Shown one piece after another: positions 1-36,018 of a stretch of 40,043 bases of DNA (position 1 is its first letter; every line of letters begins with the position of its first letter). Under the pieces are notes generated by a model, which saw only the letters and a list, made by a program, of their open reading frames with translations, did not search any database and had not been told where the DNA came from. The DNA is from Actinomycetota bacterium (GTDB lineage: Bacteria > Actinomycetota > Coriobacteriia > Anaerosomatales > UBA912), in the NCBI GenBank assembly GCA_018334075.1, contig JAGXSC010000045.1, positions 1 to 40,043 on the forward strand, written 5' to 3'. A program made the position numbers and the translations under genes.

Positions 1-1166
1 ATAGGCTCTGGCAGTTCTAATTCGGAGACTCTTGTTAGTATCTCGATATCGTTCGAGTCTGGCGTCTTGGTGTGTTTGGATTTGCCAATACGGTAAACGA
101 TTTGTATCGGTTTGCGCTTAGGCCTCTCCTTCGTCTCAGTCAAAAGCGAATCATAATATGACTCAAAAGTGCGGCTCATTTTTTGCTTCGTAATGACCGC
201 GTTACAGTGAGGACATGGATACTCCTTCATTACCTTTTTTGTTTCCATGTCCATGGCTTCTTCGAGAAAAACTACCTCTCCAGCGCATTCCGGACAGGAA
301 AAAATTTCGCTCCATACGACATAGTCAACGCGCCCTTTCGTCTTTCCATCCGTATGGAGAGTTTCATACATCCAGCCGCATTCTTTTTCAACCTCCCCGA
401 GAATGCGCTTGGCCTCTTTCTCGAACACAGCAACATCGACAGGCGTGTTGTAGTTGTAGGCAATAAACGTCGCCGCTGGCGAAAGATCGTTCAGTACAGC
501 TCTGCGGACGCCCAGTTTTGAAAACGGTCGCCATACCTTCTTGCCATCTTCATCCATCTCTTCCTGCAAAATGGTGCCATCCTGCTTCACCTGATAGCCA
601 AGAGACATGACCGCTTCGCGATCGCCACACATCTGCGCCGCCACTCCTGTCATGCCAGTCCCGCAAAAACCGTCGAACACGATATCCTCCGGCTGCGTGT
701 AGTGGAGGATGTAACGCATGATGGCCTTGTGCGGCACTTTGGTATGGTAGGAGTGCGCGTTGTAAATCGGGTCGTTTTTCCCCTCGCTCACATCAGCCGC
801 AAATGGCTCACGGTGATAGTGATAGCCTTCAGGTTGTTTCGGCTTCTGCGCCTCCCATTCAGCTATGAAGTCGGCAATCCACGGGTTCGGGCAGGCGGTG
901 TAGTACGGTGGATCGCTCAGGTTTAGGATGTCCTCGTCGCTGCCGATTGGAAAGCCTTCGATCTTGCGGAACTCCGGGTCCTGCAGCTTCTTGCGCAGCT
1001 CCTCGGTAAAGTGGGCACGGCGGACTTCGTCATTCTCGAACGTCATGCCGAGGCAAGTGACCGGTTCGGAGGGCTTCTGCGGCTCTGGGAAGTCGAACTG
1101 CATTTCAGCGGAATTGGCATCGTCAAAAGCATCATTCATCTCGTCAATATCCTCTTCATCAAACAT
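1..1166 (-). CDS. pglX: BREX-3 DNA adenine methyltransferase PglXI, N-terminal part (runs off left edge)
   Basis: Open reading frame of 388 codons from ATG at 1166 to the window edge with no stop, so the 3' part is missing. It reads as a DNA N6-adenine methyltransferase with an embedded zinc ribbon, the PglXI type of BREX type 3, which marks host DNA as self. Visible motifs: catalytic DPPY (residues 85-88, in NLSDPPYYTACPNP); a conserved HSYHTKVPHKAI stretch (138-149); the AdoMet-binding motif I FDGFCGTGMTG (164-174); and two CxxC pairs (CPEC at 291, CPHC at 318) forming the zinc ribbon. DPPY precedes motif I, as in beta-type enzymes. The start overlaps the stop of the upstream gene by 8 nt, implying translational coupling. 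The family call rests on motif recognition and on brxF and brxC in the same operon; a different zinc-ribbon methylase is the alternative. Confidence 0.8.
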   Translation of the reverse strand, partial: MFDEEDIDEMNDAFDDANSAEMQFDFPEPQKPSEPVTCLGMTFENDEVRRAHFTEELRKKLQDPEFRKIEGFPIGSDEDILNLSDPPYYTACPNPWIADFIAEWEAQKPKQPEGYHYHREPFAADVSEGKNDPIYNAHSYHTKVPHKAIMRYILHYTQPEDIVFDGFCGTGMTGVAAQMCGDREAVMSLGYQVKQDGTILQEEMDEDGKKVWRPFSKLGVRRAVLNDLSPAATFIAYNYNTPVDVAVFEKEAKRILGEVEKECGWMYETLHTDGKTKGRVDYVVWSEIFSCPECAGEVVFLEEAMDMETKKVMKEYPCPHCNAVITKQKMSRTFESYYDSLLTETKERPKRKPIQIVYRIGKSKHTKTPDSNDIEILTRVSELELPEP

Positions 1167-2643: not shown

Positions 2644-2650
2644 TCGCGTT

Positions 2651-5600
2651 TCAGCCTTCCACGACGATCCGCACCTTGGCCGGATCCTTGCCCTTGGTAA
2701 GCTGATCGATGTGTTCCTCAAAGCGTTTCTTCATCTCCGCCGGGGTGGCCGGTCCGCCGGTGACTTGCAGGGCCTGTTGCAGCTCCTGCGCCTTGACGGT
2801 GACCTTGACCAGGCCGGAGAGCACTTCCTTCAGAGCATGAACAAAGTTGCCATCCAGCGGCACCGGCAGTTCCTTCGATTTGATGAAGGCTTCCAACGGT
2901 TCGCGGTCATCGATCTTTAGCAGATCCATGTTGGTCTTGGTGATCGGGTCCTCCAGGTTGCTGAGGATAATGGAGGTCCATGCCGCCACCATGGTGTCGA
3001 GCTGGACGTCCATCTGTTCGATCATCTGCGAGCCTGCCGCCATGTCGGTTTCCCCCGACGGTCGGAACCCGCAATGCGGGCAGATGGGCGAGGCCTCGAG
3101 GTTTTGCTCAGTCAGAGCAAAGCAGCTCTTCAGCCCAGCCAGGCGGTTCTGGTAATCAGTGAGCTGCTGCCTGGGCATCAGGTCGATACCGGCCAGCTTG
3201 AGCAAGGTTTGCAGGCGCTGGTCGTTGAGCAGTCCTGCCTTGCGTTTGTCGTCGTTCACGCCCAGCCGAGCCTTGGTGTGCAGGCCGATGTAGGCGACGA
3301 TGTAGTCCTTCTTCAGCTTTTGCAGCTTGGCCCCGATGCTCTGGGACTGGCTGGCCAGCTCGGTCAGGTCGGCCTGTTTGAGGGCATACAGTACGTCCTG
3401 CCGGGTGGTCTTCATGCGATCCACCCAGTCATGCTCGTCGGGCAGCGCCGCCTCTGCGTTAGAAAGCCAAGCAGCCGTCGGGCTGTGATCCATGATGAAC
3501 TCGCGCAAGGCGTCCAGTTCATCCAGAGCCTTCACGGCCTTTTCGTGAGCCAGCACTTCGGGAGCGCTGTAGCGGAAGTTCTTCAGCTTGCCCGGCGAGG
3601 AGTAGGCCTGCAGCGATTCAAAAAAGCCCTTGCCCTCGTCCAGTCCGCTGGCCTGGCTGGCCAGGTCGGTGTCCGCGAGCAGATCCATGCCCCAGAAAGA
3701 TAGCCCTTGACGCAGGGTCTGCTGGGTCATAACGATGCGCTTGACGATCTTACCCACAGCCTGCTGCAGGCTCTGGACCGGCTCGTCCTTGCCCTGGGTG
3801 ACGAGCTGGGCCATGCCCGGCGTCATGCTGAGCAGTTCGAACAGCGCCTTGAGCGCGGGAAGGTTCCATTCCTTGGGCTGCTCCAGGTGCTTGAAGCGAG
3901 CCAGCTCGTCCATACCGGTCGCGGCCAGTTGCTGCAACCCGGTGGCGTCAAATTTCTTGCCCGGGATGGAGAGAACGATATCGCCGGAGTAGACCAGCGA
4001 CGCCAGGATGACCATCATCCATTCGGGTTCCAACCGTGAACCGCCCGGGTTCATGTATTCGAGGCCGTGGTCGTCATGAATGATCTCGCTGCGGTTAACC
4101 ACCTGGCCGTGGCCTTTGGCCTTGACGGCATCGAGGATAAACTTGGTGTACTTCGACTTGTGGGGGTCGATCTTCTCGCCATCGAGCAGCTCCAGGGCGT
4201 CCAGTACAGCAGTGGCCTGCTTGGTGCGGTGGAGCCCCCCGATGGCCCGCAGAGCATCCTGCGCGGCCTGGGCGCGGTTGTTGCCGGTGATCAGAACCGA
4301 GAAAAACGGATAGTCCGGGGCCTGGTTCTCGAAGTTCGGCGCCAGGCAAACACCGGCGATAGCGTTGACCAAATCGCGGAAGTTGATGGTCTCGTGGGGC
4401 GACAGGCCAGACAAGTCGCGGATCGATTTGCCCTTGGCCCATTCAGTCATTGACTTGGCGCGGCCCTGGTATGTGACCTCGAAGGCATCGCTCATGTGCT
4501 TCTGCAGCCACTGGACCAGTTTCTTCAGGAAACCGTTGGCCTTCGATTCATAGGTGGCCTTGGCATGGCCAGATGAGGTGGCCGCAAGATCCAGAGCGGC
4601 CGCATAGCTCTTCAATGCGGTCTGGAATTCCTCGTCGGTACCCTTCAGGCGAAAGAAGACCTCGTCGTTGAACTTGTCGTCCCTGAATCGGGGCGGATCG
4701 CTGGGCTGGATGAAGTAAAGGTAGAAGTCCCGCTGCGGCACGGCGGTGGAGCGCTCGTTGGGAGCACCGAAAAAGAGGTAGCCTGAGCGGGCGGCTTTAT
4801 GCTCCTGCCAGATTAGCTCGTGCTGCCAGATCTTGTAGCCGGTCACGTAGGTGGCGTCCTGGCATTCCATGACCCGCTTGAGTGCCTCGTAATAGAAGCG
4901 GTCGAGCTGAGCCTGGCCCAGGCTTTCGGCCCGCTTGTCGATCAAGGCGTCGAAGTCGTCGGTCTTCTTCAGATCGAGGTAGAACTGGCGGTTTTCGACA
5001 TTGAAGGAGATAAACTGGCCACTGACTGTCTTGTGGATCTCGCGCAGAACCGTTTCCACATGGGTCTGCAGATCCTTGTCAGGCTCGTCGCTGCCCAGCT
5101 CGGCGATTAGCGGATCGAACAGGCAGAGACGGTCGCGCAGTTCCTCGGCGGATGCGCCCATGGGGGCATAGATATCGCCGGTGGTGAGGCGGTGAACGGA
5201 CAGCGCATGGATCAGTCGCAGCGCCATCGGCTTGTATTGCTTGCGGGTGATGGCGTTTTCGATCCGGGATTCCAGCACCTGGCTGCAATCGATAACCGCC
5301 CGGATCTCGGGAAGGGCGCGGAAGGAGGCGTTCTGTTTGAGCGTGCTCCAGTAGCTGTCGAAGGCGATCAGGCCGGGTTCGTCCTGCGGCACGTCTTTTC
5401 CGAGAATGCCTTTCATGCCCATGGACAGGGTCTTGAGCACCTCGCGTTTTTCCACCATGGTGACCCGCTCGAAGGTGTCGATGTAATCGGGATGCACCGG
5501 AAAGAGGCGGACAAAGTCGTCCATGCGCTCATTGAAGCCGCCATAGTATTTGGCAAAGGGCGTAAGGTAGTCGCGGATCTTAGCCTGTTGCTCGGTGGTC

Positions 5601-6385
5601 TTCTTGAGCAGGCGCTCGGCAACGACGAATTTCACGTCGCTGCGCGCAATAAGGATCTGCTCGAAGCGGTCCTTCACCCGGCGGATGCTGTCGGCGACAA
5701 AAGAGAAACGCGGGCTGTCAAAGATGGCTTCCTGGACACCGGCCATAAAGCGGAAGCGCAGGTCCTTGCAAACCTCGCCGACCTCGCGGAGAAAGTTGAG
5801 GTCGAGGATAAGTTCCTGGTCATTGCGGGCACGTAGGTAGTCGAGCAGCTCATCGACCACCAGCAGCAAGCCGTGTTCGGGAAATACCTCGCCGAACTTG
5901 GCCATCATGTCTTCGAAGGCCCGCTTGTGGCTGGTGATGGTCCCGGCTTCGGGGAACACATACTCTACGCCGAGCTTTTCGAGATGCTCTTCCAGTTCGG
6001 CCACCAGGATGTCGCGCAGGGACATGGTAGTGGATCCGATCTCGGTACGGATAACCTTGAAGCGTCCGGCGATCTGATCTGCTGCGTCGCGGACACCGGC
6101 GTGGCTCAGGCCCTCTAGCAGTGATGCGTCTGCGGCAATGCTGGAGACCACCGACATCAAGTGCGATTTACCGGTGCCGTAGTTGCCGACGACAAGCAGG
6201 CCCTTGTTGTCGGCAGGCTGGTCAAACTGCATCTGAGGAATGACAAGCTGTGTGAGCCGTTCGGCCATTTCCTCGGAAATGACATAAGTGTTTACGAGCG
6301 TGAGTGCGGCGCTCGATTTGTCCGCGTCACGCAACTGAACGACCGACTCAATCGGGTCGAACTGAATAAGGTCTCCGTATTTCAT
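2651..6385 (-). CDS. brxC: BREX AAA+ ATPase BrxC/PglY (DUF6079-like)
   Basis: 1244 aa, the usual size for BrxC/PglY, the large P-loop ATPase of BREX phage-exclusion systems. Walker A is GNYGTGKS at residues 67-74; Walker B is LLLVVDE at 173-179, followed by [10 protein letters not shown]. The N-terminus ([20 protein letters not shown]) is typical of the DUF6079/PglY group. The long C-terminal half is helix-rich and has a small CPHCG element near residue 1085 that may bind metal. Its ATG overlaps the brxF stop (ATGA), so the two ATPases are probably made together. BREX lets phage adsorb and inject but blocks phage DNA replication; the precise role of BrxC is not established. The frame is uninterrupted and probably functional. 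Assignment to type 3 rests mainly on the adjacent BrxF-like gene. Confidence 0.87.
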
Positions 6386-6897
6386 GCTTGTCCTGACTCT
6401 CTATTGTTTTTCGCCGAATCGACCGTGGCCGTGCCGTCCATGCCTACAATCAGCGCATCGACCGAGTCATAGCTGCGGTACTCGGGATGGCCGATTTCGG
6501 CATACAAAAGCCTCCCGGAACTCATGATTCCGCTCCACGAAGCCACCACGGCCTGGTTTCTCGAAATGCCCTGTAGCAGGCGCAAGGGATCCTGCTGGAG
6601 ATCCTTGTCGAAGAGGATCTCGAGATTATCCAGCACCACGGGTGACTGAGCTTGGTTCGCGATCTGCTCGAGGATGCCTGACAAGCGAAGTGACCGCTGC
6701 CTTGCCGTCAACTCAAGCAGTTCGCCTGAAAGCGCCAGATTGACGTTAACGACGGATGACCCGAACTCCTCGGCAATATCCCGAAGAACGCCTGTCTTGC
6801 CGGAACCGCTCTCACCCACCAGAAGTACCAGGCGGTGATATAAGTCTTCGGATGCCTGGAGAGATCGTTTTATCTTGTCGTGAACCGGCCCAGCCAT
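6382..6897 (-). CDS. brxF: BREX-3 small P-loop protein BrxF
   Basis: 171 aa from ATG at 6897, with AAGGAG six nt upstream. It is a compact P-loop NTPase: Walker A GESGSGKT at residues 28-35, a hydrophobic strand ending in an acidic residue (SPVVLDN, 85-91) as Walker B, then a motor-like LEILFD. Size, fold and position directly before brxC match BrxF, the ATPase that marks BREX type 3. The stop overlaps the brxC start (ATGA). The preceding HTH frame runs 86 nt into this gene on the same strand in another phase, so brxF was probably co-transcribed with that regulator. No damage is seen. The alternative is a generic ORC/DnaA-like small ATPase, unlikely given the context. Confidence 0.82.
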
Positions 6898-7120
6898 GGT
6901 CGCTCCTTATTTGCTCGGTTTCCGGCTTATCAGATTTATCAGCCGCACCGACGACCCTCACCCAATCGCCGACTTCGTCTTTCTTGAACTTCCCGCGACA
7001 GCCCATGCGGTGGGCAGGCATCGCATGCTTGTCGATCCAGCGGTAAACGGTGCCACTGCTGACACCGAGCTACTTGCCTATCTCGGCTACTGATAGCCAG
7101 CGGTCTTCCACCTCAGCCAT
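6812..7120 (-). pseudogene. Excisionase-family HTH regulator upstream of brxF, broken by an amber codon
   Basis: From ATG at 7120 the frame reads MAEVEDRWLSVAEIGK, then TAG (7072-7070), then LGVSSGTVYRWIDKHAMPAH and RMGCRGKFKKDEVGDWVR. This is the MerR/excisionase-like HTH (HTH_17) seen at the head of defence operons, where a residue such as Tyr normally sits at the stop position (EIGKYLGVS). A single TAC/TAT to TAG change would explain it. The frame stays open for 86 codons after the stop and ends inside brxF. Internal restart at Met34 (7021) would lose the recognition helix region, so the product is probably non-functional unless the amber codon is suppressed or read through. A sequencing error is possible. 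Confidence 0.72.
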
Positions 7121-7373
7121 CTTCTAATATATCACTGACCACTGACAATTCTATCCGTATAAGGCGGGCATGGCGTCGAATAGTGAGTTCCGGCAATTCG
7201 TCTTTAGCGGTATTTGTACTGGGCAAATACTTTCCAGATAATCATAGGCATCGGGAACATAGGAACCGCACAGGCCGGATTGGTTGTTGGCGTCGTGAAA
7301 AAAGCACCAACGCCTTCGCTTATGCCGCCGACGGGCGGCAGGACCTTGGCGTTCAGAGCCAGCTGGGGGGTCA
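7121..7373. other. Intergenic region upstream of the BREX operon
   Basis: No convincing gene on either strand. A 7-bp direct repeat (cactgac twice at 7133-7146, plus-strand reading) lies just upstream of the HTH start and could be an operator half-site pair, but no clear -35/-10 pair is visible. The weak plus-strand frames here have no ribosome binding site and no recognisable family. Confidence 0.4.
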
Positions 7374-7460
7374 CTACCAGTCGAGTTTGCGGGTTACGCG
7401 CAGATAGAATTCCCGCTCCAGAATGGCCAGGTTGTCACAAGCCATGTCGCAAGTTTGTCA
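7374..7460 (-). pseudogene. Possible DUF1016 (YhcG-like nuclease) remnant
   Basis: A short minus-strand frame ends in LAILEREFYLRVTRKLDW followed by TAG. It resembles the conserved REFYxRMTRKFGW segment of DUF1016/YhcG PDDEXK nucleases, which continues for well over 100 residues in intact proteins. An upstream stop and the early TAG leave only a scrap. It fits the debris field around it. Low confidence because so little sequence remains. Confidence 0.3.
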
Positions 7461-7476
7461 CAAGCATACACCTCTG

Positions 7477-7842
7477 CTACTCGTCGGCATGGTGTTGAAG
7501 CCAACGCAGTCCTTTACTGGTCAACCGATAACGCTGAGTCGGGCTACGCGGGGAATCGGGTTGTGTACGTTCGATCCATACGTCTTCCATGGCCGGATTG
7601 AGGTAGTTGTTCCAAAACGTAGGGCGGTGGGACAAACCCAAGGCCTGCATCAAATCGTTACTGCCCAGTTCGCCGCTCCCAATTGCACGGATCAATGCCG
7701 CTACTTGGTCGCTTACTTGGTCGCTTACTTGGTCGGTCGACACAGCCTCACGGACTGCATCGCGCAACGAACCCAGCATGAACTCGACAAAAAGAGTAGC
7801 ATCTGCCTGTTGGTCAGCCGCCGCGAGTGCCGGAATCATCAC
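7477..7842 (-). pseudogene. C-terminal fragment of a Fic-like or AlbA_2-type protein
   Basis: 121 aa at most, with no ribosome binding site at its ATG. It starts in the middle of a domain (ATLFVEFMLGSLRDAVREA), followed by a SDQV repeat linker and a winged helix (GSNDLMQALGLSHRPTFWNNY, then RYRLTSKGLRWLQ). The LFVEFMLG...DQVSDQV arrangement is typical of the C-terminus of Fic-family proteins and related AlbA_2 proteins; the catalytic part is absent. It directly follows a truncated HsdS frame, so a deletion appears to have joined the two. Probably not functional. Confidence 0.6.
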
Positions 7843-8047
7843 CTTCGGAAATATCTGAGGTTGTGCTTGGCAAGAGGCTTCCGGTCCAGGACTGAATGTT
7901 TTCTAGCCCCAAGTAGTCGGCATGCTCGGAGGTTGCGTCCATTCGCTCATTTCGAAGCGGCGCAATAAATTTCAGCCGCTTTCCGACTTCATCAACCCTT
8001 CGTGTCTTCGCGCCTTCGTGTGAGGCCATCATTGCCCCCGGATTCAT
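7814..8047 (-). pseudogene. hsdS: Truncated type I restriction specificity subunit HsdS, N-terminus
   Basis: 77 aa. RLKFIAPLRNERMDA and YLGLENIQSWTGSLL match the start of the first target-recognition domain of HsdS, which is normally about 400-450 aa. After SLLPSTTSDISEGD the frame loses homology, and the last residues overlap the Fic-like fragment in another phase. Its ATG overlaps the rhuM stop (ATGA), so the original hsdM-rhuM-hsdS layout is still visible. Most of both recognition domains is gone, so it should not confer specificity. Confidence 0.6.
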
Positions 8048-9069
8048 CGTTTTTCCTTCTTCTGTTCAAGTTGTCTTTCAATCCGCTCCAGCTCCACGAT
8101 CTCCTCGGCATCGGCCTGCCTGACCTCGGCGATGCGGCGTTTTTCGTCGAAAGCGTCGAAGCATTCGCAGGCGATGCGCTCCATGGCCTCGCGCGAGACA
8201 CTGCCGGCGTGGGTGAGCACGGCCTTTTCGTTGAAGTCCAGCAACCGGTCGACATTATGCCGCCAGTAGTCGAGAGTGAGCTGCTTGCGCTCCTTCACCC
8301 GCAATTCAGCCTGTTCCAGGAAGATGACCACCAGCCGGTTGAGGGTGTCCACCTCGTCGGCGGAAAGGTAGTTCTTGGCCACGATCACATCATGCTTGCG
8401 CACCCGCGAGCCGCTCCAGTTGGTGAGTGCCATGTTGGGGGCGTCCGGGTCGGCGCGGGAGACGATGATCTCGGCGGCGGTCTGACCGGCGACGGCGAAC
8501 AGCAGCTTGTTCTGGGTTTCAGCGAAGAAGAGTTGGGCGGCACGGTCGTCGGAAGTATAGTCGGAACTGAGCGCAAAGAGGTCGCGTACCTTCTGGTAAA
8601 AACGCTTCTCCGAGGCGCGGATCTCGCGGATGCGGGCCAGCAGCTCGTCGAAGTAGTCCCAGCCGCCGGGGTTCTTGAGGCGCTCGTCGTCCATGACGAA
8701 GCCCTTGACCAGATACTCGGCCAGGTGGGCGGTGGCCCACTGGCGGAACTGGGTGCCGCGCGGCGAGCGCACCCGGTAGCCCACCGCCAGGATCATATAC
8801 AGGTTGTACAGGTAGGTCTTGCGCTGGACCCGGCGGTTGCCCTCGTTTTGAACTGTCAAGGATTCCTTGACAGTTGCCGCCTCCGGCAACTCCCCTTCCA
8901 TTAGGATGTTCTTGATGTGCAGGCTGACGTTCTGCTTGGTAGTATCGAACAGCTCGGCCATCTCGCCCTGATTCAGCCAGACGGTACCATCCAGGGTTTG
9001 CAGCTGGACTTCCGCCTGCCCATCCTCGGTACGGTAAACGATCAGCTCTCCCCGGTCCGGTGTGCTCAC
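8044..9069 (-). CDS. RhuM family (virulence protein / Fic-associated) protein
   Basis: 341 aa from GTG at 9069, overlapping the preceding stop (GTGA). The sequence is that of the RhuM family: GELIVYRTEDGQAEVQLQ, WLNQGEMAELFDTTKQNVS with an HTH-like element, then RTYLYNLYMILAVGYRVRS reads here as KTYLYNLYMILAVGYRVRS, and FRQWATAHLAEYLVKGFVMDDERL. The C-terminal part has a Fic/Doc-like stretch without an obvious HPFxxGNG motif and ends in a charged coiled-coil tail. RhuM genes commonly sit between hsdM and hsdS of type I restriction systems; the molecular function is unknown. It appears intact, unlike both neighbours, so it may have outlived the restriction system. Confidence 0.85.
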   Translation of the reverse strand: MSTPDRGELIVYRTEDGQAEVQLQTLDGTVWLNQGEMAELFDTTKQNVSLHIKNILMEGELPEAATVKESLTVQNEGNRRVQRKTYLYNLYMILAVGYRVRSPRGTQFRQWATAHLAEYLVKGFVMDDERLKNPGGWDYFDELLARIREIRASEKRFYQKVRDLFALSSDYTSDDRAAQLFFAETQNKLLFAVAGQTAAEIIVSRADPDAPNMALTNWSGSRVRKHDVIVAKNYLSADEVDTLNRLVVIFLEQAELRVKERKQLTLDYWRHNVDRLLDFNEKAVLTHAGSVSREAMERIACECFDAFDEKRRIAEVRQADAEEIVELERIERQLEQKKEKR

Positions 9070-9539
9070 TCCGTCACCTCCCGCAAGAGGCCCATGATCC
9101 GCTTCTCTACCGCCTCCAGTTCGGCGTCGATCTCGGCAAGCGGTCTCGGCGGTTGGTACTGGAAGAATTCGCGGTTGAAGTTAATCTCGTACCCCACCTT
9201 GCCGATGCCGCCATCCTGTTCGTCCAGAGTGTCGCGGCCGATCCAGGCGTCCGCCACATAAGGGCGCACTTCGCGCAGCACGTAGCTGATGACGTCTTCC
9301 TTGAGCGGGATGTTTTCAAAATCCTTCAGGTTGGAGTCGGCCTCGTACTCGACATATTTCCCTTTCCCTGCCGAGTTGAGTCCAAGCAGGACTTTCATCT
9401 CATCGGGCGCAAGCTCGGGCAGGGTTTGGCCGGGAAACAGCGCTTCGTCCACATGGCGGGGATGCGGGCCGCTTTCGGCAAACTGTGAAACCACTTGATA
9501 GAGACGGTTTGCCTCTTCAAGTTTGGCAATCGGGGTCAT
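9066..9539 (-). pseudogene. hsdM: C-terminal remnant of type I DNA methyltransferase HsdM
   Basis: 157 aa against about 500-800 for an intact HsdM. The C-terminal 90 residues match the family tail: LKDFENIPLKEDVISYVLRE, PYVADAWIGRD, KVGYEINFNREFFQYQPPRP and LAEIDAELEAVEKRIMGLL. The AdoMet motif and the NPPF catalytic motif are absent. The first 55 residues are not recognised. The ATG overlaps the upstream HTH stop (ATGA), and the stop overlaps the rhuM start (GTGA), so it could still be translated. It cannot methylate DNA. Confidence 0.72.
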
Positions 9540-9870: not shown

Positions 9871-10223
9871 TGGTGGAGGCGCGGAGAATCGAACTCCGGT
9901 CCACGATACACGATCGGGAAGCATCTCCAGGCTCAGTCATCAGTGAGTTCTCGGCCGGCGCATTACCTGATGACACGCGGTGCGTCGTCCATGGCGGTTC
10001 AGGCTATAAGCAACACCATACCGCCTACGTGTGCTGCAGCAGTCCCCTAAGTGGCGCCTTACCGATGACGGGGACGCTCATCGGGTCGGCGTCGCTGCAC
10101 TATTTAGGCAGCGAGGGCGTAATCATTGTCGACGTTTATGCGTCGGTACCCCTGTTTTACGAGACGAGGAGATCTCGGCCTGCTTCTTCCGTCAAGCCTA
10201 TCGTGTCGAAACCAGTCGCCCCC
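9871..10223 (-). ncRNA. ssrA: tmRNA (ssrA)
   Basis: The 5' end GGGGGCGACTGGTTTCGACA is the canonical tmRNA start, and the 3' end carries the T-loop GTTCGATTC and an encoded CCA. The acceptor stem pairs GGGGGCG (10223-10217) with CGCCTCC, giving seven pairs including one G-U. The tag frame ends DNDYALAA and stops at 10106-10104. The usual alanine resume codon is not in frame: the codons before are ATA AAC GTC, and a GCA just upstream would read directly into TAA. tmRNA with SmpB rescues stalled ribosomes and tags the nascent chain for proteolysis. smpB and rnr lie just upstream on the same strand. Its 3' end is a frequent integration site, and the defence island starts here. Confidence 0.95.
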
Positions 10224-24116: not shown

Positions 24117-27100
24117 TCATGCAGTGGAGGCGTCTTCATCTCTCGGCTCGGATAAACGAGGTGTTCCTAGATGCTCCATCGACAGTATCTGATGGTAGAT
24201 TTGCGCCGTCTCAGAGGACGGATCCATGCCAAGATCCTCGTTCAGGCGTTTGCAAAACTTCATGTAGACCTCAATAGCGGTGCTACGTTGACCAGCGGCC
24301 GCAAGCTGCTTCATGAGGTTTTGATGAAGATCCTCACGCCATGCGTCGGCAGCCACGCCGCGCCAGGAGAACCTGAGTGCCCGGGCATTGTCACCCATTT
24401 CAGCAGCGAGCTCAGTGGCCCGCAACATTGAATCCCCAAATCCGATTCGATAGCGGTCGCGCTCATCTGTAAACCAGTCATCATACAGATCGCCCGGTAA
24501 CAACTCACCAACGTACAGCTCATCAAGGCGCTCGTAAGCTCCCAGTGCCGATTCCATATCCCCCATACGCTCTGCCGCAATCGCCTCTGACCTGAGCGCT
24601 CCGAACTCGGAGATATCCACTGAAACCAGACTCGATACCATTCGGCACATCCCGCCGACATGCTCGAGATACGGCAATGGAACTTTGCGGTCCGCTTTGG
24701 ACAGAAGTGCCGACTTCATCGCGCTCCAAATCACGTAAAGATTGTTTTGCGCTTTTTCTGAGTCTTTGTCGGGCCACAAATAATCAAAGATAATATCCAC
24801 CGGAACATCTTGCCCCTGCTTGAAGACTAGCATCGCGAATAACAGGCGCGCTTTTCGCTTCTTCCAGTCTTTCTCGCGCACACTTCTATCACCGACGCGA
24901 ACCCCCAGCCCTCCAAACATGCGAACTTTGCACATGGGGACATCTGCATCCTGCCGCTTCAACTGCTGGCGTATTCGATCGGCTGTTTCCTCACACGTAA
25001 ACCGAAGAGCAAGTTTTTTCCATGTCTTTTTCGAGCGTATAACCTCAAGGGCCGCGATAAGAGTCTTCTCGACGTCATCGGGTAGCACCATTTTTAGCAA
25101 GTACCTAGAAAGACGATCCGGATCCGCCACCTCCGAAAGTAGCCCCAGCAGGTGAGGGAATGCGCGAATATACATTCCGATCCACCAGTTCGAATACTCG
25201 CTCAAGACATATTCCGCATGAGGTGCAAGCCGTTTCCTGGCAGCGCCCAAATCGCCTTTTCGTCGGTCGCTTTCAGCCAGAATCATATCCGCGATCAGCG
25301 CATATTGAGCCGCTCCTATTTTCGTGGCGGAATCCCTAACGGATTTCGCATGCTTTTCAGCGGCTGGTGCATCTTGCAGCACCAAAAGATTAGCAGCAAA
25401 CTCCAAGGTCGCCAGCCACTCCACCCATTTACCTGAGCAACGTGTCGCGTGCTCGAGCGCTGTCTCGGAAAAGATCAGAGCCTGTTCATGCTCCCCGGCT
25501 GCACGGGTCCAGGCAGAGCGATAAGTGCACAACCTTGAGAGTTCCATCTCAAAGTTTCGGGCTTTGTTTCCATCGTATGCCTCAGTTGCCGCTATCTTAG
25601 CCTGCCCATAATCCCCTATGCCCGCCGCTGCTGTCGCCAAGTTGCTTAATTGCCAAAGCTCAACATAGGTAAGCCCATGCTTTTTTGAGGTTTTGATCGT
25701 GGATTCCGTCAGTTGCCTTGCGCGCTCAAGGCGACCAAGTTCGCAGTGTATGGCATTCAGATTGCCTTGAATGTGTATTTGCATTGTAAGAGACAGCCCT
25801 TCCATATTCAGTAACCTGGAAAGCCTCCGCCTAGTCTGTTTTAAATTTCCATACACGCTCACATCAACGAATAGTGCGTTATTTCGCACCAAAGCTTCTA
25901 CTTCCACGTGAATGTTTTTGTTGTCCGCTATCCAAATCGCCTTTTCGATATGGGGCAGACCTTTGTCCATATCCAAAAGATAGCTAAAACAAACGCCGAG
26001 ATACGCATGAGCCAATGCGCGCACATCATCGTCAACTTCCATTTCAAGAATTTTGGATAATACTTGCGTTGCCTCAGCCATAAGCGCGTCGTCCATTTGA
26101 ACGCAAACCCTCAACATCAAAGCTTCGGCCGCCAATTTTTCATTGCCCTCGGCAATGGCAAGATCATAAGCAGCGCAGGCTAAACGCAACGCGTCCTCCT
26201 TTTCAGCTTTTGCCCTCAATAGTCGCGCATTCCAGAAAAGTAATTTCGAACTTCTCGATATACCGACGGGCCCTAGACGTGAAAAAGCCATCGATAGCAA
26301 CTTGAGCTCACCTGATTCATAAAGCCTGTTTCCCGCTTTTTCCATCCACTCTGCCAGCAGCTGCAACGGGGCGCGTCGCAGTGCGAGCGCGAAAAGCGCG
26401 TCATATCTTCCTGTCGCGTCAAAATTTCCTAGTGCTCGCCGCAGCAGGTGATCAGATTGGAATCTAGTCGAGTCCGGCTGGGTAAAACATCTCTCCTCAT
26501 AGATTTCCGCAGCCAGATCATGGACGCGAAATCTGCATGTCTCTCCCGCTCCGGAAACCGTAACCAAAGGCATCAACTTTCCGAGCATCTGAATATCTGC
26601 TACTGCTGGCCTACCGACAACCGCCTCCGCCTCCTCACCGGTTCCCGATTTCAGCAACGCGCATGTATAAAGTACCGCTTTCAGACGATCGTCAAGCTGC
26701 ATATCAACCAGCTTGTTCAGATGCGCCACCAAATCTAGGGGAGCAGGCCCTGCAAACGAACCATTCTCTCCACTCTGGAAGGAGCCTAGAGCGATATGCC
26801 TGGCAAGCACACAAGCCGTTGCGGCTCTACCCGCCGATAGTTTCATCAGCTCTTCCGCGGCGCCAACGTCCACTTCACCGGTCAGGTAGCGTTTCAATAC
26901 CTGCCAGCACTCCTCCTCACTGAGCTTCAGGTGATCGGTTTGAAGCAGAGTAACCCCATCGCTCTCCTCAAATACTTCTGGTGACTCCCATCGCGTCGTC
27001 ACGATAACCCTGCTGCTGTCGAGTGTTTCGAGCATCCCGGTCAGCTCCCGAACGGCGGCCACGTCAGCTCCCACCGGCATATCATCAAGAACGACAGTGA

Positions 27101-27458
27101 CCCCCTTGCCTTCGCGAAATCGCTCGAGCGAAGATCTCACGCCCTCTACCAGATCAACTGTGTTTCGGTTGAGTATCGACGGCGCAGATCTGAGCTCGAC
27201 ACGACCCTCGCCGGCGCCAAAAAAATCATCGAGTGCAGAAAAAAGCTGCTCCCTGTTCCACTCCAACCCCGAACAGTCGAGCCAGATTACCTCCCCCTCG
27301 AATATCCCTGCAAGCTGAGAAGCCAGAACACTTTTTCCATAACCAGCCGGTGCGGCAAGGACCACAAAAGAGTCGTCCGCTTTGGCGACAGTCTCGACCA
27401 GTTTGTCTCTCGGTACAGTGCCCCGAAAACGCGAAAGGTATCTTTTCGAATAGTGCAT
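24117..27458 (-). CDS. STAND ATPase (MalT-like) with C-terminal OmpR-type wHTH and BTAD activator domain
   Basis: 1113 aa from ATG at 27458, with AGGGG upstream; GTG at 27464 is too close to it. The N-terminal NTPase has Walker A APAGYGKSVLASQ (GYGKS 39-43) and VTVVLDDMPVG as Walker B, typical of MalT/LuxR-type STAND regulators. A long TPR-like helical region follows (about 330-830). The C-terminus has a winged helix (VRMFGGLGVRVGDRSVREKD, then RKARLLFAMLVFKQG) and a bacterial transcriptional activator domain (LYVGELLPGDLYDDWFTDER, then SWRGVAADAWREDLHQNLMK). Such proteins activate transcription on ligand and ATP binding. The MalT-like body thus carries a SARP-like effector rather than a LuxR HTH. 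The target is unknown; the neighbouring membrane operon is a candidate. Confidence 0.88.
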   Translation of the reverse strand: MHYSKRYLSRFRGTVPRDKLVETVAKADDSFVVLAAPAGYGKSVLASQLAGIFEGEVIWLDCSGLEWNREQLFSALDDFFGAGEGRVELRSAPSILNRNTVDLVEGVRSSLERFREGKGVTVVLDDMPVGADVAAVRELTGMLETLDSSRVIVTTRWESPEVFEESDGVTLLQTDHLKLSEEECWQVLKRYLTGEVDVGAAEELMKLSAGRAATACVLARHIALGSFQSGENGSFAGPAPLDLVAHLNKLVDMQLDDRLKAVLYTCALLKSGTGEEAEAVVGRPAVADIQMLGKLMPLVTVSGAGETCRFRVHDLAAEIYEERCFTQPDSTRFQSDHLLRRALGNFDATGRYDALFALALRRAPLQLLAEWMEKAGNRLYESGELKLLSMAFSRLGPVGISRSSKLLFWNARLLRAKAEKEDALRLACAAYDLAIAEGNEKLAAEALMLRVCVQMDDALMAEATQVLSKILEMEVDDDVRALAHAYLGVCFSYLLDMDKGLPHIEKAIWIADNKNIHVEVEALVRNNALFVDVSVYGNLKQTRRRLSRLLNMEGLSLTMQIHIQGNLNAIHCELGRLERARQLTESTIKTSKKHGLTYVELWQLSNLATAAAGIGDYGQAKIAATEAYDGNKARNFEMELSRLCTYRSAWTRAAGEHEQALIFSETALEHATRCSGKWVEWLATLEFAANLLVLQDAPAAEKHAKSVRDSATKIGAAQYALIADMILAESDRRKGDLGAARKRLAPHAEYVLSEYSNWWIGMYIRAFPHLLGLLSEVADPDRLSRYLLKMVLPDDVEKTLIAALEVIRSKKTWKKLALRFTCEETADRIRQQLKRQDADVPMCKVRMFGGLGVRVGDRSVREKDWKKRKARLLFAMLVFKQGQDVPVDIIFDYLWPDKDSEKAQNNLYVIWSAMKSALLSKADRKVPLPYLEHVGGMCRMVSSLVSVDISEFGALRSEAIAAERMGDMESALGAYERLDELYVGELLPGDLYDDWFTDERDRYRIGFGDSMLRATELAAEMGDNARALRFSWRGVAADAWREDLHQNLMKQLAAAGQRSTAIEVYMKFCKRLNEDLGMDPSSETAQIYHQILSMEHLGTPRLSEPRDEDASTA

Positions 27459-27509
27459 GCCCACCGCCCCTACTAATGAGTCTCCCCAACATGCATCATT
27501 ACCTATCAG

Positions 27510-27538
27510 TCATAACAAAATCCAACTAATTTTTGCAA
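27510..27538 (-). promoter_or_regulatory. Promoter candidate for the STAND/BTAD regulator
   Basis: Minus-strand TTGCAA (27538-27533), 17-nt spacer, TTATGA (27515-27510). It overlaps the last codons of the DUF5317 gene and lies about 50 nt before the regulator start. Confidence 0.4.
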
Positions 27539-28083
27539 TCATCAAACTGATCATGCATAGCTGCGAAAATATATACCCCCAAACCAAACGACATATACAC
27601 ATCTCCTATGCTGACGATGTTTCCCGAATCTCCGGGTCCGGGCACCGGCAGCACATCGCCGAGCCATAACAAAGATGTACCCATTTCGGCCGGAACGTGG
27701 AGCCACGATTGATCCAGCGCGGCATAAACCACTTGCGCTTGGCTGGATATCATCGCAGCATTTGCCGTTAGTACCGGCATCCCGCCATTCACAGCGATTA
27801 CCACAATATTGAGTGCAAGGCCCAATGCGACAAGCGCAAAACCCGGCTCGCGGACGTTCCAAAGCGATATCGCGAGACAGCCTAAAGCCGGGATCATCCA
27901 AAAAACGTACAGTAAAATCGATTCGGGCAACTCCACCGGAATCCCCGTCGCCACAAGCTGAATAAACAGAAGCACAATAAATATCTCGATCCCCCGCAGC
28001 CGATGGTGGGCCAACGCGCCGAACTTTCCTTTGGTGATAAGGCCCAGCGCGATGCCGAGAAGCATTCCGATAATAAGAATCAT
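27526..28083 (-). CDS. DUF5317 membrane protein
   Basis: 185 aa with about five membrane segments (ILIIGMLLGIALGLITKG; IFIVLLFIQLVATGIPVEL; ILLYVFWMIPALGCLAISLW; FALVALGLALNIVVIAVNGG; and a C-terminal VSIGDVYMSFGLGVYIFAAM). The NGGMPVL motif and the GDVxxSFGxGVYIF end are those of DUF5317, a family of unknown function seen mainly in Actinobacteria. Its ATG overlaps the upstream HD gene stop (ATGA), placing it last in the three-gene HD operon. Confidence 0.8.
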   Translation of the reverse strand: MILIIGMLLGIALGLITKGKFGALAHHRLRGIEIFIVLLFIQLVATGIPVELPESILLYVFWMIPALGCLAISLWNVREPGFALVALGLALNIVVIAVNGGMPVLTANAAMISSQAQVVYAALDQSWLHVPAEMGTSLLWLGDVLPVPGPGDSGNIVSIGDVYMSFGLGVYIFAAMHDQFDDCKN

Positions 28084-29267
28084 CGCCTACCCCCGTAAGC
28101 CAGCCCAGCCTCAAGGGCATTCAGAACACTTTCAGAGTGCCCGGCCGGATCTCTTTGTCGCATGATGGAGATGCGCTCAGCTGTAGGCACGCCCCTGGCT
28201 GCGAGATCATCATAGTGTGAGGCGACCCTCACGATCTGCGCCAACAAGAACTTGTCCACCTCGACCTCAAGGGCAAACTTCGACTCCCTGCCCTGAAGTA
28301 ACAGTACCGGCGCAAGATCACTAAGAAACTCGACTTTTGAGAGCATTTCGGCTCCGCGGGACGCAACAGTATCGGAGCTCTCGTGGACGCTGCCATCCAC
28401 CCTTGCTTCCAGCCCTAACCTGCCGATGTCATGCAAGAGAGCGGCTGTCGTGAGCCGCTCCATCAACTCTCCGCTCAGACCAAGCTGACGGCCGATCAAG
28501 GCGGAAAGCTCCGCTGTACGCTCGGCATGCCCGCTTCTGGCTGGGTGTTGCATTTCGGGGATGTGCGCGAGCGCCGAGATGGTGTGCATATATGCCGAGC
28601 GCAAGCCGAGAAGCAGAGTGAAGCTGTGCTGCATAATCACCATTAGGGCCACAAGGATAAAAACCGCGAAATCACCTAGCCCCGGATAGATCAGCACCAT
28701 AACAATTGCAATCGATATCTGCGAGAGATAGAGCGTACCGACAGTTCGGACGATCCCATTAAAAGCATCGCGGATCCGAGAAAATCCATACCTTCCTTCG
28801 AAAATCAAGAACCCAACAATATCCACTAAGGCATAAACTACCCCAGATAAACCGCCCAAAAGAAAAAGTTGCAAGTGCCCGAGGGGGAAACCCGAACCCA
28901 AAAACGCAATGCTAAACAGCAGAGCCAGGCCATATATAACTATCACGCGCCTGAATAGATCAAAAAACCACATACGCGATATGTCGGTGGGCTTTACTAA
29001 AACCAGGGCCACCGCCGACCCCAAAGCCGCGGTCAAGGTTGCGACTTCGGGTGAGAGCAGCATCATGGCTCCGACGGCCGCTCCTACGTCGATTCCGAGT
29101 TTGCCGCCGCGAGTCAAAGCCAATGGCAAGAGATTGAATACCGCAATACCACCAGCAAGTAATAGTGATGTCAGCAGCCTGATATCAGGCCCGATAAACT
29201 CCATCACAAGCAAGGCCGTCAGCGATCCGATGGCTATGACAGTCCCTGACGCCCTTGCGCTAAACAT
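28080..29267 (-). CDS. Membrane-anchored degenerate HD-GYP-like protein
   Basis: 395 aa from ATG at 29267 (GGAGAG seven nt upstream), overlapping the previous stop by eight nt. About six membrane helices fill residues 5-210, then an HD domain with GHAERTAELSALIGRQLGLS and LLHDIGRLGLEA. The second half of the HD-GYP signature is missing: LLLQGRESKF stands where HHExxDGxGYP is expected, so cyclic-di-GMP hydrolysis of the usual kind is doubtful. The downstream helices fit an HD-GYP fold (DKFLLAQIVRVASHYDDLAA). It may act as a regulatory partner of the intact paralogue encoded just upstream. Confidence 0.83.
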   Translation of the reverse strand: MFSARASGTVIAIGSLTALLVMEFIGPDIRLLTSLLLAGGIAVFNLLPLALTRGGKLGIDVGAAVGAMMLLSPEVATLTAALGSAVALVLVKPTDISRMWFFDLFRRVIVIYGLALLFSIAFLGSGFPLGHLQLFLLGGLSGVVYALVDIVGFLIFEGRYGFSRIRDAFNGIVRTVGTLYLSQISIAIVMVLIYPGLGDFAVFILVALMVIMQHSFTLLLGLRSAYMHTISALAHIPEMQHPARSGHAERTAELSALIGRQLGLSGELMERLTTAALLHDIGRLGLEARVDGSVHESSDTVASRGAEMLSKVEFLSDLAPVLLLQGRESKFALEVEVDKFLLAQIVRVASHYDDLAARGVPTAERISIMRQRDPAGHSESVLNALEAGLAYGGRR

Positions 29268-30543
29268 TTGCCGGCTCTCCCACTCCTCGACGCACTGTGG
29301 CAGGAGCGATCGCCCCTTCGTTGATCGCGGCGACAAAGGCCTCCACGCATTTAGGGTCAAGGTGACTAGGGACAGAGTTCCTCAACTCCTGAATCGCCTC
29401 GTCCAATGAGAGAGTTTCCCGGTATGGCCTCAAGGAAGTGATCGCATCGAAAGTATCGGCGACCATAATTATGCGGGCACCTAAGGGTATCTCGTCACCC
29501 TTTAGCCCCATCGGATAACCTTTACCATCGAGACGCTCGTGGTGCGCGGCGATCAGCGGAATGACGTCACGCAAGAACTCTACTTCCTCCAATATCTCAA
29601 CCGCTATCGCGGGATGCTCCCTTATCTCGCAATATTCCTCGTCGCTCAACTCTCCCTGTTTGCACAGAGTCTCCCCCCGGACAATCACCTTGCCGATGTC
29701 GTGCAGCAATGCGGCCCACTCGATGCGCTGCACTTCGAACTCTCGCAAGCCTAAATGCTGACACACTGCTCGCGCGTAAGCCGCTACTCTTTCGGTGTGC
29801 CCGCTTGTGTACTTGTCCTTCACTTCTATCGCCGCTACCAGCGAGCGAACAGTATCCAAATACGCCGCCTGACGCTGCTGATAGATCATGAAGGTCTGTC
29901 TGGACACCAGGAAGGGAGCGATCAGTAATACGAGATACGCGAATCCCGCGAGTGCCACAAGTTTTGCGATTACGAGTCCCAGCAACGCTAGTGGAAGCAG
30001 CCCTCGTATATAATGCAACGCATCGGATGCAATTGCTCTGAACTGAGATTTGGTCACTAACCGGATCGCGATTACAACAAGCCCTACGTTTATTGCTGTA
30101 TACGTTACAGCCGTAAGTAGCACCAGTAACAGCCAAATCCAAATGTCAACACCTATCTGCGGTTCGAAGTATAGCGGCACGCCCCCCATGCCCAAATAGA
30201 CACTTCCCGCAACTGCCGCCGCTATTCCAAGCTGCGACATATTGAAAATAATTTGATAGAGTGGCTTGCCGCTAGCCAAGTCCCTGGAGGTTACCGATCC
30301 AGCAATCGCAACCATTACGCCTAGCTCAGGTCCGCCTAGCAAAATCGCAGCAAGGCAAATTGCAAACGCCAGTGACACGCTGCCGCCGTTCGGCAACTTA
30401 TAAGTAAGCATTTCAGCAACAAAACACACTGCACCAAGCAGCAACACTAGCAGCCAGTCAATACGGCCAGGCGAGCTATATAACCAATAGAGCATCAGCA
30501 CTGCCGCGAATGTAACTAGATGGAAGTAGGCACGGATCAGCAT
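29260..30543 (-). CDS. Membrane HD-GYP domain phosphodiesterase
   Basis: 427 aa from ATG at 30543, preceded by GGGGGTAGG. The N-terminal half has about seven membrane helices (MASE-like sensor). Residues about 235-415 form a complete HD-GYP domain: YTSGHTERVAAYARAV, LLHDIGKVIV, and AAHHERLDGKGYPMGLKGDE, followed by ARIIMVADTFDAITSLRPYR. HD-GYP proteins hydrolyse cyclic di-GMP (some cGAMP) at a di-metal site. It is the first gene of a three-gene operon with the degenerate paralogue and DUF5317. Confidence 0.92.
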   Translation of the reverse strand: MLIRAYFHLVTFAAVLMLYWLYSSPGRIDWLLVLLLGAVCFVAEMLTYKLPNGGSVSLAFAICLAAILLGGPELGVMVAIAGSVTSRDLASGKPLYQIIFNMSQLGIAAAVAGSVYLGMGGVPLYFEPQIGVDIWIWLLLVLLTAVTYTAINVGLVVIAIRLVTKSQFRAIASDALHYIRGLLPLALLGLVIAKLVALAGFAYLVLLIAPFLVSRQTFMIYQQRQAAYLDTVRSLVAAIEVKDKYTSGHTERVAAYARAVCQHLGLREFEVQRIEWAALLHDIGKVIVRGETLCKQGELSDEEYCEIREHPAIAVEILEEVEFLRDVIPLIAAHHERLDGKGYPMGLKGDEIPLGARIIMVADTFDAITSLRPYRETLSLDEAIQELRNSVPSHLDPKCVEAFVAAINEGAIAPATVRRGVGEPANV

Positions 30544-30608
30544 CGTGCCTACCCCCGCGATTCCGTTTGAGCTTTATGCCGCTCGCACATTATGGGCAAC
30601 AATTTTTT

Positions 30609-30683
30609 TTACAGTCTCATATTCGCTGCGCCAGTGTAAACAATGGCGGTTAGCGCGGTGAGTAGAAAAATAATGCGCTTCAT
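30609..30683 (-). CDS. Candidate 24-aa hydrophobic peptide (small ORF)
   Basis: ATG at 30683 is preceded by a perfect AGGAGGT nine nt upstream (TTAGGAGGTCTTCTTACTATG-like context, 30683-30702). It encodes MKRIIFLLTALTAIVYTGAA plus NMRL, then TAA. The product is a lysine/arginine start followed by one hydrophobic helix, as in small membrane peptides or leader peptides. It lies 65 nt upstream of the HD-GYP gene on the same strand. A run of eight A directly follows the stop. A 73-codon frame in another phase overlaps it (30574-30795) but has a weak ribosome site and no recognisable domain. No family known; it could also be a decayed secreted-protein start. Confidence 0.5.
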   Translation of the reverse strand: MKRIIFLLTALTAIVYTGAANMRL

Positions 30684-30818
30684 AGTAAGAAGACCTCCTA
30701 AGTGTTTCTTTGATCTTCTCCCATTCCGCTAAAGATGGAAGAACGCTGTCCGCTCCGCTCGCTCGTTTGCGTACAGTGTCCGGTTTGCTGATCATTCCGG
30801 TTGCCCGCTACAAGACCG

Positions 30819-31490
30819 CTATGTGGCTGTCAAAAAAAATCCGAGGCGACGATTGATCGCATCGAGCGTCGCCTTGACGATCGAGTCTTTCTCATTCTGT
30901 TGTACCAGGGCGGATCCCACAAAAGACTCCTCGCCCATGGCGGACACAAGCGAAACGCATGAGACCGCCACACGCTGACGGCCAAGTTGCAAGACATCGA
31001 CGTCTTCAAGGCCGAAAAGCCTGGCGTCGGGGACGCACTTGTTGATCGCGTTGAGAGTCGCTAAAGCCACCAGGCGAATCCGGCCGGTTTTGCTCGCGGG
31101 GCCGCTGGCTTCTCCCTGGTATGTCTTGCCATCGATTTCCAGCTCTACCACAACTGCCGAATGCACCCCGCTGACGTGGGCGTTTATCGATGAGATTCGA
31201 GTTCGAAGCCCACCTCGGAAATTGTCCGGCTCCAGCACTTTGGCCACATCGGCGCCCAATTGAGCAACCGATATTTTCTTGTGGTCAACCGCCAGGCCAT
31301 ATGCGGCCATCAATGTCGATTCGATGTCGCGAACAAGTTGTTTTGGCGCCTTGCTGGGAAGCGCCAGTACGTGTATCTCTTGAATGACTCCCTCTGGGGA
31401 TGCAACCACACGGGCAGCTTTGACCTCAGCTATCTGGCCCAACGTGTTTTCGATATCCTCAATCGATATCCGAGACACCTGCTGGTCCAT
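30819..31490 (-). CDS. Conserved hypothetical protein, unknown function
   Basis: 223 aa with AAAGG seven nt before the ATG. I do not recognise a named family. The N-terminal about 90 residues have a ferredoxin-like, ACT/BON-type pattern (IEDIENTLGQIAEVKAARVV, then LVRDIESTLMAAYGLAVDHK). The C-terminal half is beta-rich and may repeat a VxVEL...ATLxAI pattern twice (VVVELEIDGKTYQGEASGPA, ALATLNAINKCVP; and VSCVSLVSAMGEESFVGSAL, ATLDAINRRLG). It is soluble with no signal. It has a promoter of its own (31575-31604) after hpf and precedes the HD operon. Confidence 0.8.
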   Translation of the reverse strand: MDQQVSRISIEDIENTLGQIAEVKAARVVASPEGVIQEIHVLALPSKAPKQLVRDIESTLMAAYGLAVDHKKISVAQLGADVAKVLEPDNFRGGLRTRISSINAHVSGVHSAVVVELEIDGKTYQGEASGPASKTGRIRLVALATLNAINKCVPDARLFGLEDVDVLQLGRQRVAVSCVSLVSAMGEESFVGSALVQQNEKDSIVKATLDAINRRLGFFLTAT

Positions 31491-35717: not shown

Positions 35718-36018
35718 AGCTCACAACCTCTCGCAAAGTCCATAAATACCGTCATTCAGTAAGTGCTCTCACCCGGCTGACCTGGTCTTTGACCCCACAC
35801 TCGCGTACCGGGACTTTCGCTCGATGCAATCTCACTAACGATCCTCTCGCCCCTGAACCGCGGGATGCGGTCCTAACGGGCGGTACGACTTACCCCTAAG
35901 ACGCGCCATGCTCGCGCGACGAAACCGCCGGCTTACGTGGGTCCTTTCGGCCGCGTCTACCATGGACTTGGGCGCGATAGCGCCCTCAACCACAGACCCG
36001 GGTGGGAGCATAGTGATT
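35718..36018 (-). other. Gene-free 301-bp gap with RNA-like secondary structure
   Basis: No protein frame with a ribosome site. An extended -10 at its start would make a transcript. On the minus strand several helices are visible: GGGCGC/GCGCCC with a 4-nt loop (about 35969-35984); AGACGCG/CGCGTCT (about 35955-35961 with 35900-35906); CGCCC enclosing a GGACCGC/GCGGTTC hairpin with GGGCG (about 35848-35885); CCCGG/CCGGG enclosing GGTC-AAA-GACC (about 35773-35814); and TTAGTGAG/CTTACTGA (about 35756-35763 with 35831-35838). There is no terminator, so it could be a long leader of the downstream binding-protein gene or a stand-alone RNA. The raiA RNA of clostridia lies between comFC and hpf, and this is also just after comFC. 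Confidence 0.4.

Follow-up and report, generated by a model that had tools for sequence, protein, structure and literature searches.

A 24-codon ORF (30609..30683) on the minus strand of the 40-kb contig of a 1.89-Mb genome was confirmed as a real gene and as the conserved reading frame at its locus. We are inclined, on balance, to regard it as the precursor of a secreted peptide signal, for which the membrane half of the neighbouring HD-GYP protein would be the receptor. Coordinates are those of the window, ie the whole stretch of 40,043 nucleotides that was analysed, and all of its features described here lie on the minus strand. The order of transcription is hpf, U223 (223 aa, 30819..31490), a structured leader RNA, the 24-codon ORF and a MASE9-HD-GYP protein of 427 aa (29260..30543), whose membrane sensor, approximately residues 1-220, is the proposed receptor. 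These are followed by HD2 (28080..29360), a second, degenerate membrane HD protein in which HDIG is kept and the HH and GYP motifs are absent, a DUF5317 membrane protein (27526..28083), a MalT/AfsR-like regulator with a BTAD domain (24117..27464), and two genes which, from their sequences, we take to be secA and prfB.

The translation of the ORF is MKRIIFLLTALTAIVYTGAANMRL. Its Shine-Dalgarno sequence, AGGAGG (30694..30699), is 10 nt from the ATG (9 nt counted from AGGAGGT), and a G-rich string of this kind precedes the ORF in 48/48 loci, so that the ribosome binding site picked out in the preliminary description is a conserved one. Selection on the codons was measured in 48 of 59 leader hits, all from Anaerosomatales; ten with too little downstream sequence and one without a locus were dropped, and no locus with enough sequence was lost through the script accepting ATG starts only. 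The ratio pN/pS was 0.33 over codons 2-20 (bootstrap 0.31-0.37) and 0.06 for codons 2-3, and within genera it was 0.04 for residues 2-20. An overlapping frame of 73 codons (30574-30795) is also open within the order, over the leader part in 40/45 loci and over the ORF part in 43/45, and the spacing from loop to ATG is kept modulo 3 in 41/45. The 43/45 is above the null of 0.71, although the loci compared are closely related. An SD-like 4-mer precedes a start of the longer frame in just 6/48 loci, and no start with a Shine-Dalgarno is common to it among the 48. It is not kept outside the order: of 17 outgroup loci, just three have it open over the leader, and over the 17 the spacings modulo 3 number 9, 5 and 3. 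It was rejected as the gene on the grounds that it lacks a shared start and is not kept in the outgroups. The opposite pattern, ie a broken 24-codon frame beside a conserved 73-codon one, was looked for and was not what the relatives showed, so the choice of the shorter frame as the selected one holds.

A covariance model of the 110-nt leader matched 54 of the 69 genomes of Anaerosomatales and a profile of the peptide 52, their union being 56, which is more than chance. The tie to the HD-GYP protein was also borne out. An HD-GYP match lies downstream in 46 of the 58 leader loci with sequence, the other 12 having at most 809 nt downstream, and U223 lies upstream in 55 of the 58, the remaining three having at most 9 nt there. 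The same small ORF was present upstream of the best HD-GYP relatives in 4/4 genomes of the family. The locus is usually a single, syntenic copy heading the operon, and was found in 12 of the 16 families of the order. At least two genomes of the order without an RNA match (G026 and G053) have contigs broken exactly at the leader or peptide, and G002 reads N there. Draft contigs often end at or near these elements (G003, G024, G026, G032, G048, G050, G052, G053, G057, G061, G062, G064, G065 and G067), which would follow if the sequence up to that point is nearly identical in several species and becomes polymorphic beyond it. A second locus in G001 (L092, tail AWKM) is on an 8-kb contig, its U223 is 86-95% identical to that of f2 genomes, and it may represent transfer or a binning error. 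In other orders of the class the leader model matched 0 of 327 sampled genomes; elsewhere in the phylum it matched 10 places among 396 sampled genomes, one of which (L112) is a chance hit. The peptide profile matched 48 of these 396 at E ≤ 0.01, of which four belong to this order and the weakest are possibly chance. Twenty-two of the peptide loci were read: 16 have an HD-GYP gene downstream, four belong to family f36 and two are at contig edges. A scan for the RNA pattern in one genome per species, covering 84,980 species, yielded 92 stretches; titles were read for all but twelve, and every stretch so read that has the peptide after it is from Actinomycetota or taxa within it.

The consensus of the peptide is MKRIxxLLxSLAALVLxGGA followed by a tail of four to six residues, giving 24-26 aa in all; the tail has four residues in 40 of 55 peptides, five in 12 and six in three. 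Residues 1-20 begin with MKR, continue as a hydrophobic core and end in small-x-A at positions 18-20. Residues 17-19 are mostly small, A20 is invariant (48/48), G19 is present in 47/48 and residue 18 is G, S or A in 47/48. The genome encodes two signal peptidase I genes. The tail, NMRL at residues 21-24 here, usually follows the pattern x-hydrophobic-[KR]-hydrophobic, with aromatic or aliphatic residues around the K/R. Its third position is K or R in 43/48 (null 0.13), its second is hydrophobic in 45/48 (null 0.31), and an acidic residue occurs in 0/48 (null 0.18). Four species of genus g8 have identical first 20 residues, leaders that differ by 0-7% and four unrelated tails (LKIPTQ, FTKM, SYVVSR and WIRG), with pS of 0.06-0.17 and pN of 0 in the N-terminal part. 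Over 27 within-genus pairs, pN was 0.009 in the N-terminal part and 0.416 in the tail. These comparisons show a peptide built of 20 residues resembling a signal peptide and of a polymorphic, chemically constrained tail.

The adjoining HD-GYP protein has intact catalytic motifs (HDIG at 281 and HHERLDGKGYP at 334; HD_5, E 6e-40) and matches MASE9 (PF20972) with E 2e-11 and 44.6 bits against a cut-off of 24.3. It is the one MASE9 protein of this genome that Pfam detects, in a search that was positive for its controls, Thermotoga maritima and Thermus composti. At E ≤ 1e-4 the model matched 12 of the 69 genomes of the order, 10 of them over the cut-off; 11 of the 12 matches lie within 1 kb of the peptide and the twelfth is at a contig end. 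Elsewhere in the order the sensor has diverged beyond the reach of the model and was assigned by orthology. The structural model of the protein has a pLDDT of 91.5, and residues 22-203 fit the ECF S-components 4hzu_S and TmRibU over 159 residues (Z 14.4 and 13.8, rmsd 3.5 and 3.4). Many other S-components gave Z of 10.1-14.4; for helical folds a value below about 13 may arise from an arrangement that is widespread, and having a fold in common does not establish function. The ECF S-component fold binds vitamin-sized ligands from outside the cell. As modelled, the membrane half resembles these transporter subunits; unlike them, it is fused to an HD-GYP output. In family f36 (four loci read, three scanned with Pfam) the peptide, with tails such as HWKV and HWKG, occurs without this RNA and without HD-GYP, and the genes flanking it, which lie on the other strand, encode MASE9-like histidine kinases. 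In the three scanned loci six proteins match MASE9 (E between 2e-5 and 2e-3; two pass the cut-off); HisKA_3 is matched by five, in one case below the cut-off.

The tail and the sensor diverge together. Twenty within-genus pairs were compared, in which, where measured, HPF was 77-95% and U223 85-99% identical (among the pairwise identities one SecA value, 21% for G028/G029, is obviously bad). Sensors were 26-46% identical where the tails differ at two or more places, with one exception at 60%, and 60-86% identical where the tails are the same or one residue apart. The tests over all pairs used 41 of the 48 loci, leaving out six without a full reading of HD-GYP or U223, and G015. For the resulting 820 pairs the partial rho between tail and sensor, given U223, was 0.222, reached in 0 of 1000 permutations; that between the tail and the catalytic part of HD-GYP was also positive (0.141, 16/1000), and in an 18-locus subset the catalytic part and the sensor were equal in this respect (0.22 and 0.20). 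The permutation numbers are descriptive and not true probabilities, because the loci are related. Among the 45 pairs with U223 at least 84% identical, the eight sharing at least three of four tail residues have sensors 51-86% identical, and the other 37 have a median of 41% and a maximum of 60%; two cross-genus pairs sharing three of four tail residues have sensors of just 51-52%. Neither HD2 nor the regulator follows the tail (partial rho between -0.07 and 0.14 in 18 loci), for which reason both were rejected as the receptor. As judged from sequence comparison, these data show that the tail co-diversifies with the membrane domain of HD-GYP, the correlation being modest and the loci related. 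The pattern is that which a signal and its receptor, inherited together as alleles, would be expected to give.

The same data bear on a live rival, if an unlikely one, in which the 24-mer remains whole within the membrane and serves MASE9-HD-GYP as a subunit or regulator. The tail would then contact its partner and would, for that reason, co-vary with it; co-diversification with the membrane half of HD-GYP fits such a contact as well as it fits a ligand. The hydrophobic stretch, the K/R at both ends and the aromatic residues near the C-terminus also agree with a membrane microprotein. Against it, the invariant A20 preceded by mostly small residues at 17-19 is the pattern of a signal peptidase site, and complete exchange of the tail within a genus, length included, would sooner be expected of a specificity signal than of a contact between subunits. 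A small membrane peptide tuning the HD-GYP proteins had been put forward in the preliminary description. Its link to HD-GYP stood, while the co-variation of tail and sensor favours a signal over a tuning subunit.

The ORF is part of a structured RNA, and the RNA enclosing it and the tail that co-varies with the sensor had both been missed earlier; that first reading was partly supported. Upstream of the ATG are three hairpins: P3 (30688..30719, AGAAGATC / GGTCTTCT), P2 (30721..30738, CCAT/ATGG with the loop TAGCGG) and P1 (30741..30781, with the conserved AGCGGAGCGG). In P3, AGAAGACC pairs with GGTCTTCT and the Shine-Dalgarno sequence lies within the hairpin, part in the loop and part in the 3' strand. 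Over 55 distinct leaders, 95.2% of the P1-P3 cells were paired compared with 38-54% in slid structures, a score which is favoured by the alignment having been fitted to the structure. Changes on both sides were found in four pairs: three in P1, clearest in L084, one in P2 (99.5% of cells paired) and none in P3 (95.9%). The arms of a long-range helix, P0, are complementary and lie one just past the U223 stop and the other just past the ORF stop. They flank leader and ORF, and the ORF is therefore inside a closed RNA domain. The window has its own version, GGGCAAC (30800..30806) with GTTGCCC (30594..30600), the latter 8 nt past the ORF stop. The mean helix score, taken over 45 of the 48 loci, was 33.4 in cis, 28.0 in trans and 18.0 when shuffled. 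In the 35 of these 45 loci used for permutation (the regular expression missed ten, including the shorter arms of this window), none of 5000 permutations attained the observed pairing, 8.09 of 9; column 1 is GC in 22 and AT in nine, and columns 4 and 5 are each AT in 26 and GC in six.

A search of Rfam with five loci at E ≤ 5 gave one weak match, away from the leader, and at gathering scores the whole window gave raiA and tmRNA, both elsewhere. A known riboswitch was rejected, as the leader has no Rfam match. We regard the leader RNA as a structured element in its own right, not listed so far, whose closing helix encloses a coding sequence. Control by CsrA through the GGA-bearing loops was rejected too, with no CsrA match in the genome (the control was positive in 3 of 14 genomes). 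We do not claim that P2, in an extended form, switches with P1 and P3, because L084 and L081 have lost the pair 55-82 of that form; L084 keeps the foot of P1 by changes on both sides.

A further hairpin, P4 (30526..30552), has 9 bp here, contains the HD-GYP start codon and is longer in other families. Its z-score, from mononucleotide shuffles, was -2.6 or lower in 20 of 22 loci of eight families, the remaining two being this window (-1.6) and the second copy in G001 (-0.3). In the 26 loci of f2, f6, f7 and f11 the family means were -0.6 to 0.3, with two loci reaching -2.6 and -2.7; a rule chose the start codon of HD-GYP, and its choice is least certain in f2. P4 does not hold for the locus in general.

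Attenuation at erm and cat is the model for another explanation, likewise raised in the preliminary description, that the ORF is a cis-acting leader. Translation of its 24 codons would open structures controlling the translation of HD-GYP, and the product would be irrelevant. P0 enclosing the ORF, P3 holding its Shine-Dalgarno and a clear hairpin at the HD-GYP start in 20 of the 48 loci (the eight families above) are what such a leader would have, and its position within a structured leader stood. Translation alone does not seem enough to explain the ORF, however. Amino-acid conservation and the polymorphic tail argue that the product matters, and selection on the amino acids, the composition of the tail and its co-variation with the sensor are not expected of a leader. 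A conserved N-terminal end with a variable C-terminal end is the opposite of an arrest peptide, in the 26 loci of the four other families the average gives no hairpin of this kind, and in f36 a related peptide without this RNA adjoins MASE9-like kinases. We consider this explanation improbable.

Closely related pairs give a finer view of the diverged region. Between G016 and G017, nucleotide identity is 94-100% from U223 (-900) to the ORF, 48-71% over 0-750 nt, ie from the tail to the end of the sensor, and 83-96% from that point as far as SecA. In the interval from U223 to SecA, divergence is limited to the tail, the spacer and the first 190 or so residues of HD-GYP; the two genomes are unlike each other upstream of U223. 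G021 and G022 have U223 99% and SecA 98% identical, but their sensors are 41% identical and their tails are MYRV and WFRA. The more distant pair G020/G022 (U223 91%) has the tail WFRA in common and sensors 80% identical. In G021/G022 and G011/G012 the divergent block continues through HD2 into the regulator. Since neither of these tracks the tail, part of the variability in g8 and g12 may have another cause. In pairs from these genera with differing tails, the first half of the regulator is 20-46% identical and the last quarter 81-96%. DUF5317 follows the regulator, rather than lying between HD2 and the regulator, in two genera (G011-G013 and G020-G023; L235-L237 and L239-L242).

Tail and sensor are adjacent, and linkage alone could make them travel together. 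It may be asked whether a surface-exposed operon has simply diverged fast, neutrally or under immune pressure, with tail and sensor varying independently and seeming linked by adjacency. HD2 is hypervariable within genera and the MalT-like regulator is hypervariable too, and the correlation between tail and sensor is modest, all of which such divergence would give. Adjacency fails to explain why tail and sensor alone diverged in G016/G017 when HD2 (93-94%) and the regulator (87-91%) did not, and the tails are chemically constrained; this account seems to us quite improbable. A module like the type I toxins, in which a hydrophobic peptide is made from an mRNA kept silent by concealing its Shine-Dalgarno and by long-range 5'-3' pairing, shares the architecture of P0 plus P3 and the size of the peptide, and is scarcely credible for a locus that is usually one syntenic copy heading an operon, in 12/16 families of the order, and whose polymorphic tail is tied to a receptor-like domain.

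For the favoured reading, a secreted peptide signal, we infer secretion, binding and output as follows. The Sec pathway and signal peptidase I would release the tail after A20, in this genome approximately NMRL; a mature peptide of four residues is unusually short for signal peptidase I. The released tail would bind the membrane domain that resembles ECF S-components, either on the cell that made it or on kin of that cell, and binding would alter the phosphodiesterase activity of HD-GYP and hence c-di-GMP. The RNA may gate the amount of precursor, with P3 hiding the Shine-Dalgarno and ribosomes at the stop having to open P0, and in eight families P4 would additionally restrain translation of HD-GYP. 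Different species would carry different alleles of signal and receptor, as in known pherotype systems, and U223 and an input to the RNA would have a role in the system. More tentatively, peptide quorum sensing of this kind may extend across Actinomycetota as a class not recognised before, with a pheromone of four to six residues cut from its precursor, a MASE9 receptor fused to a c-di-GMP phosphodiesterase or a histidine kinase, exchangeable alleles and an RNA that senses a second, licensing input.

The Agr groups and the ComQXP pherotypes are polymorphic pheromone loci of Gram-positive bacteria. As in those, a small precursor would combine a conserved export part with a variable signal part, the membrane domain of the receptor varies along with it, the flanks are conserved and alleles are shared across species lines. 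Unlike those, the output is an HD-GYP domain and not a histidine kinase, the kinase version being confined to family f36, and the precursor lies within a structured RNA. AgrB gave 0 matches in this genome (the control was positive in 1 of 14 genomes, below the cut-off, so that this search may lack sensitivity), and no NCBIfam AgrD model matched an AgrD-type precursor at E ≤ 10. The Rgg-SHP and cCF10 precursors are hydrophobic, 22-25 aa long and carry the signal in their C-terminal residues, as proposed here; their receptors are cytosolic, whereas the protein that co-varies with the tail is a membrane domain. The downstream-peptide RNA and yfr6 of cyanobacteria, the latter about 250 nt with an ORF inside, resemble our locus, as far as their description in PMC2864571 goes, in that a structured RNA precedes a short conserved ORF; here there is no Rfam match and the helix closes over the ORF itself.

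In BDSF-RpfR and AI-2-dCACHE, quorum signals are read directly by c-di-GMP enzymes (PMC8846402), and a population signal directly altering such an enzyme is what we propose. The signals in question, a fatty acid and AI-2, are sensed by PAS or dCACHE domains; the parts of that 2022 review that we consulted give these as the directly shown ones and contain no peptide case. The parts consulted of a 2016 review likewise give no reports of quorum sensing for Coriobacteriia (PMC4748050). In the open-licence literature we found no prior work on a peptide/HD-GYP system, on MASE9 as a sensor or on DUF5317. If correct, the present reading would provide a peptide language for a deep actinobacterial lineage and an instance of a c-di-GMP enzyme under the direct influence of a peptide signal. 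It offers a testable ligand for the orphan sensor domain MASE9, with exact peptides predicted for dozens of species.

The C-terminal half of U223 was modelled like the regulatory domains of LeuA and citramalate synthase, which VIA-align ranked first with Z of about 10. That U223 might be an RNA-binding protein of the dsRBD type was considered but not adopted; Foldseek ranked LeuA first, with dsRBDs below. In many families of the phylum U223 accompanies the locus, and in f38 and f39 a relative 31-36% identical is on the opposite strand. Elsewhere in the window, also on the minus strand, are a tmRNA (9871-10223), a run of large ORFs known from the reading frames alone, some of them ATPase-like (1159-9539), which we presume to be a defence island, and a raiA RNA (RF03072, 166.5 bits; 35768-36006) beside a comF-like gene.
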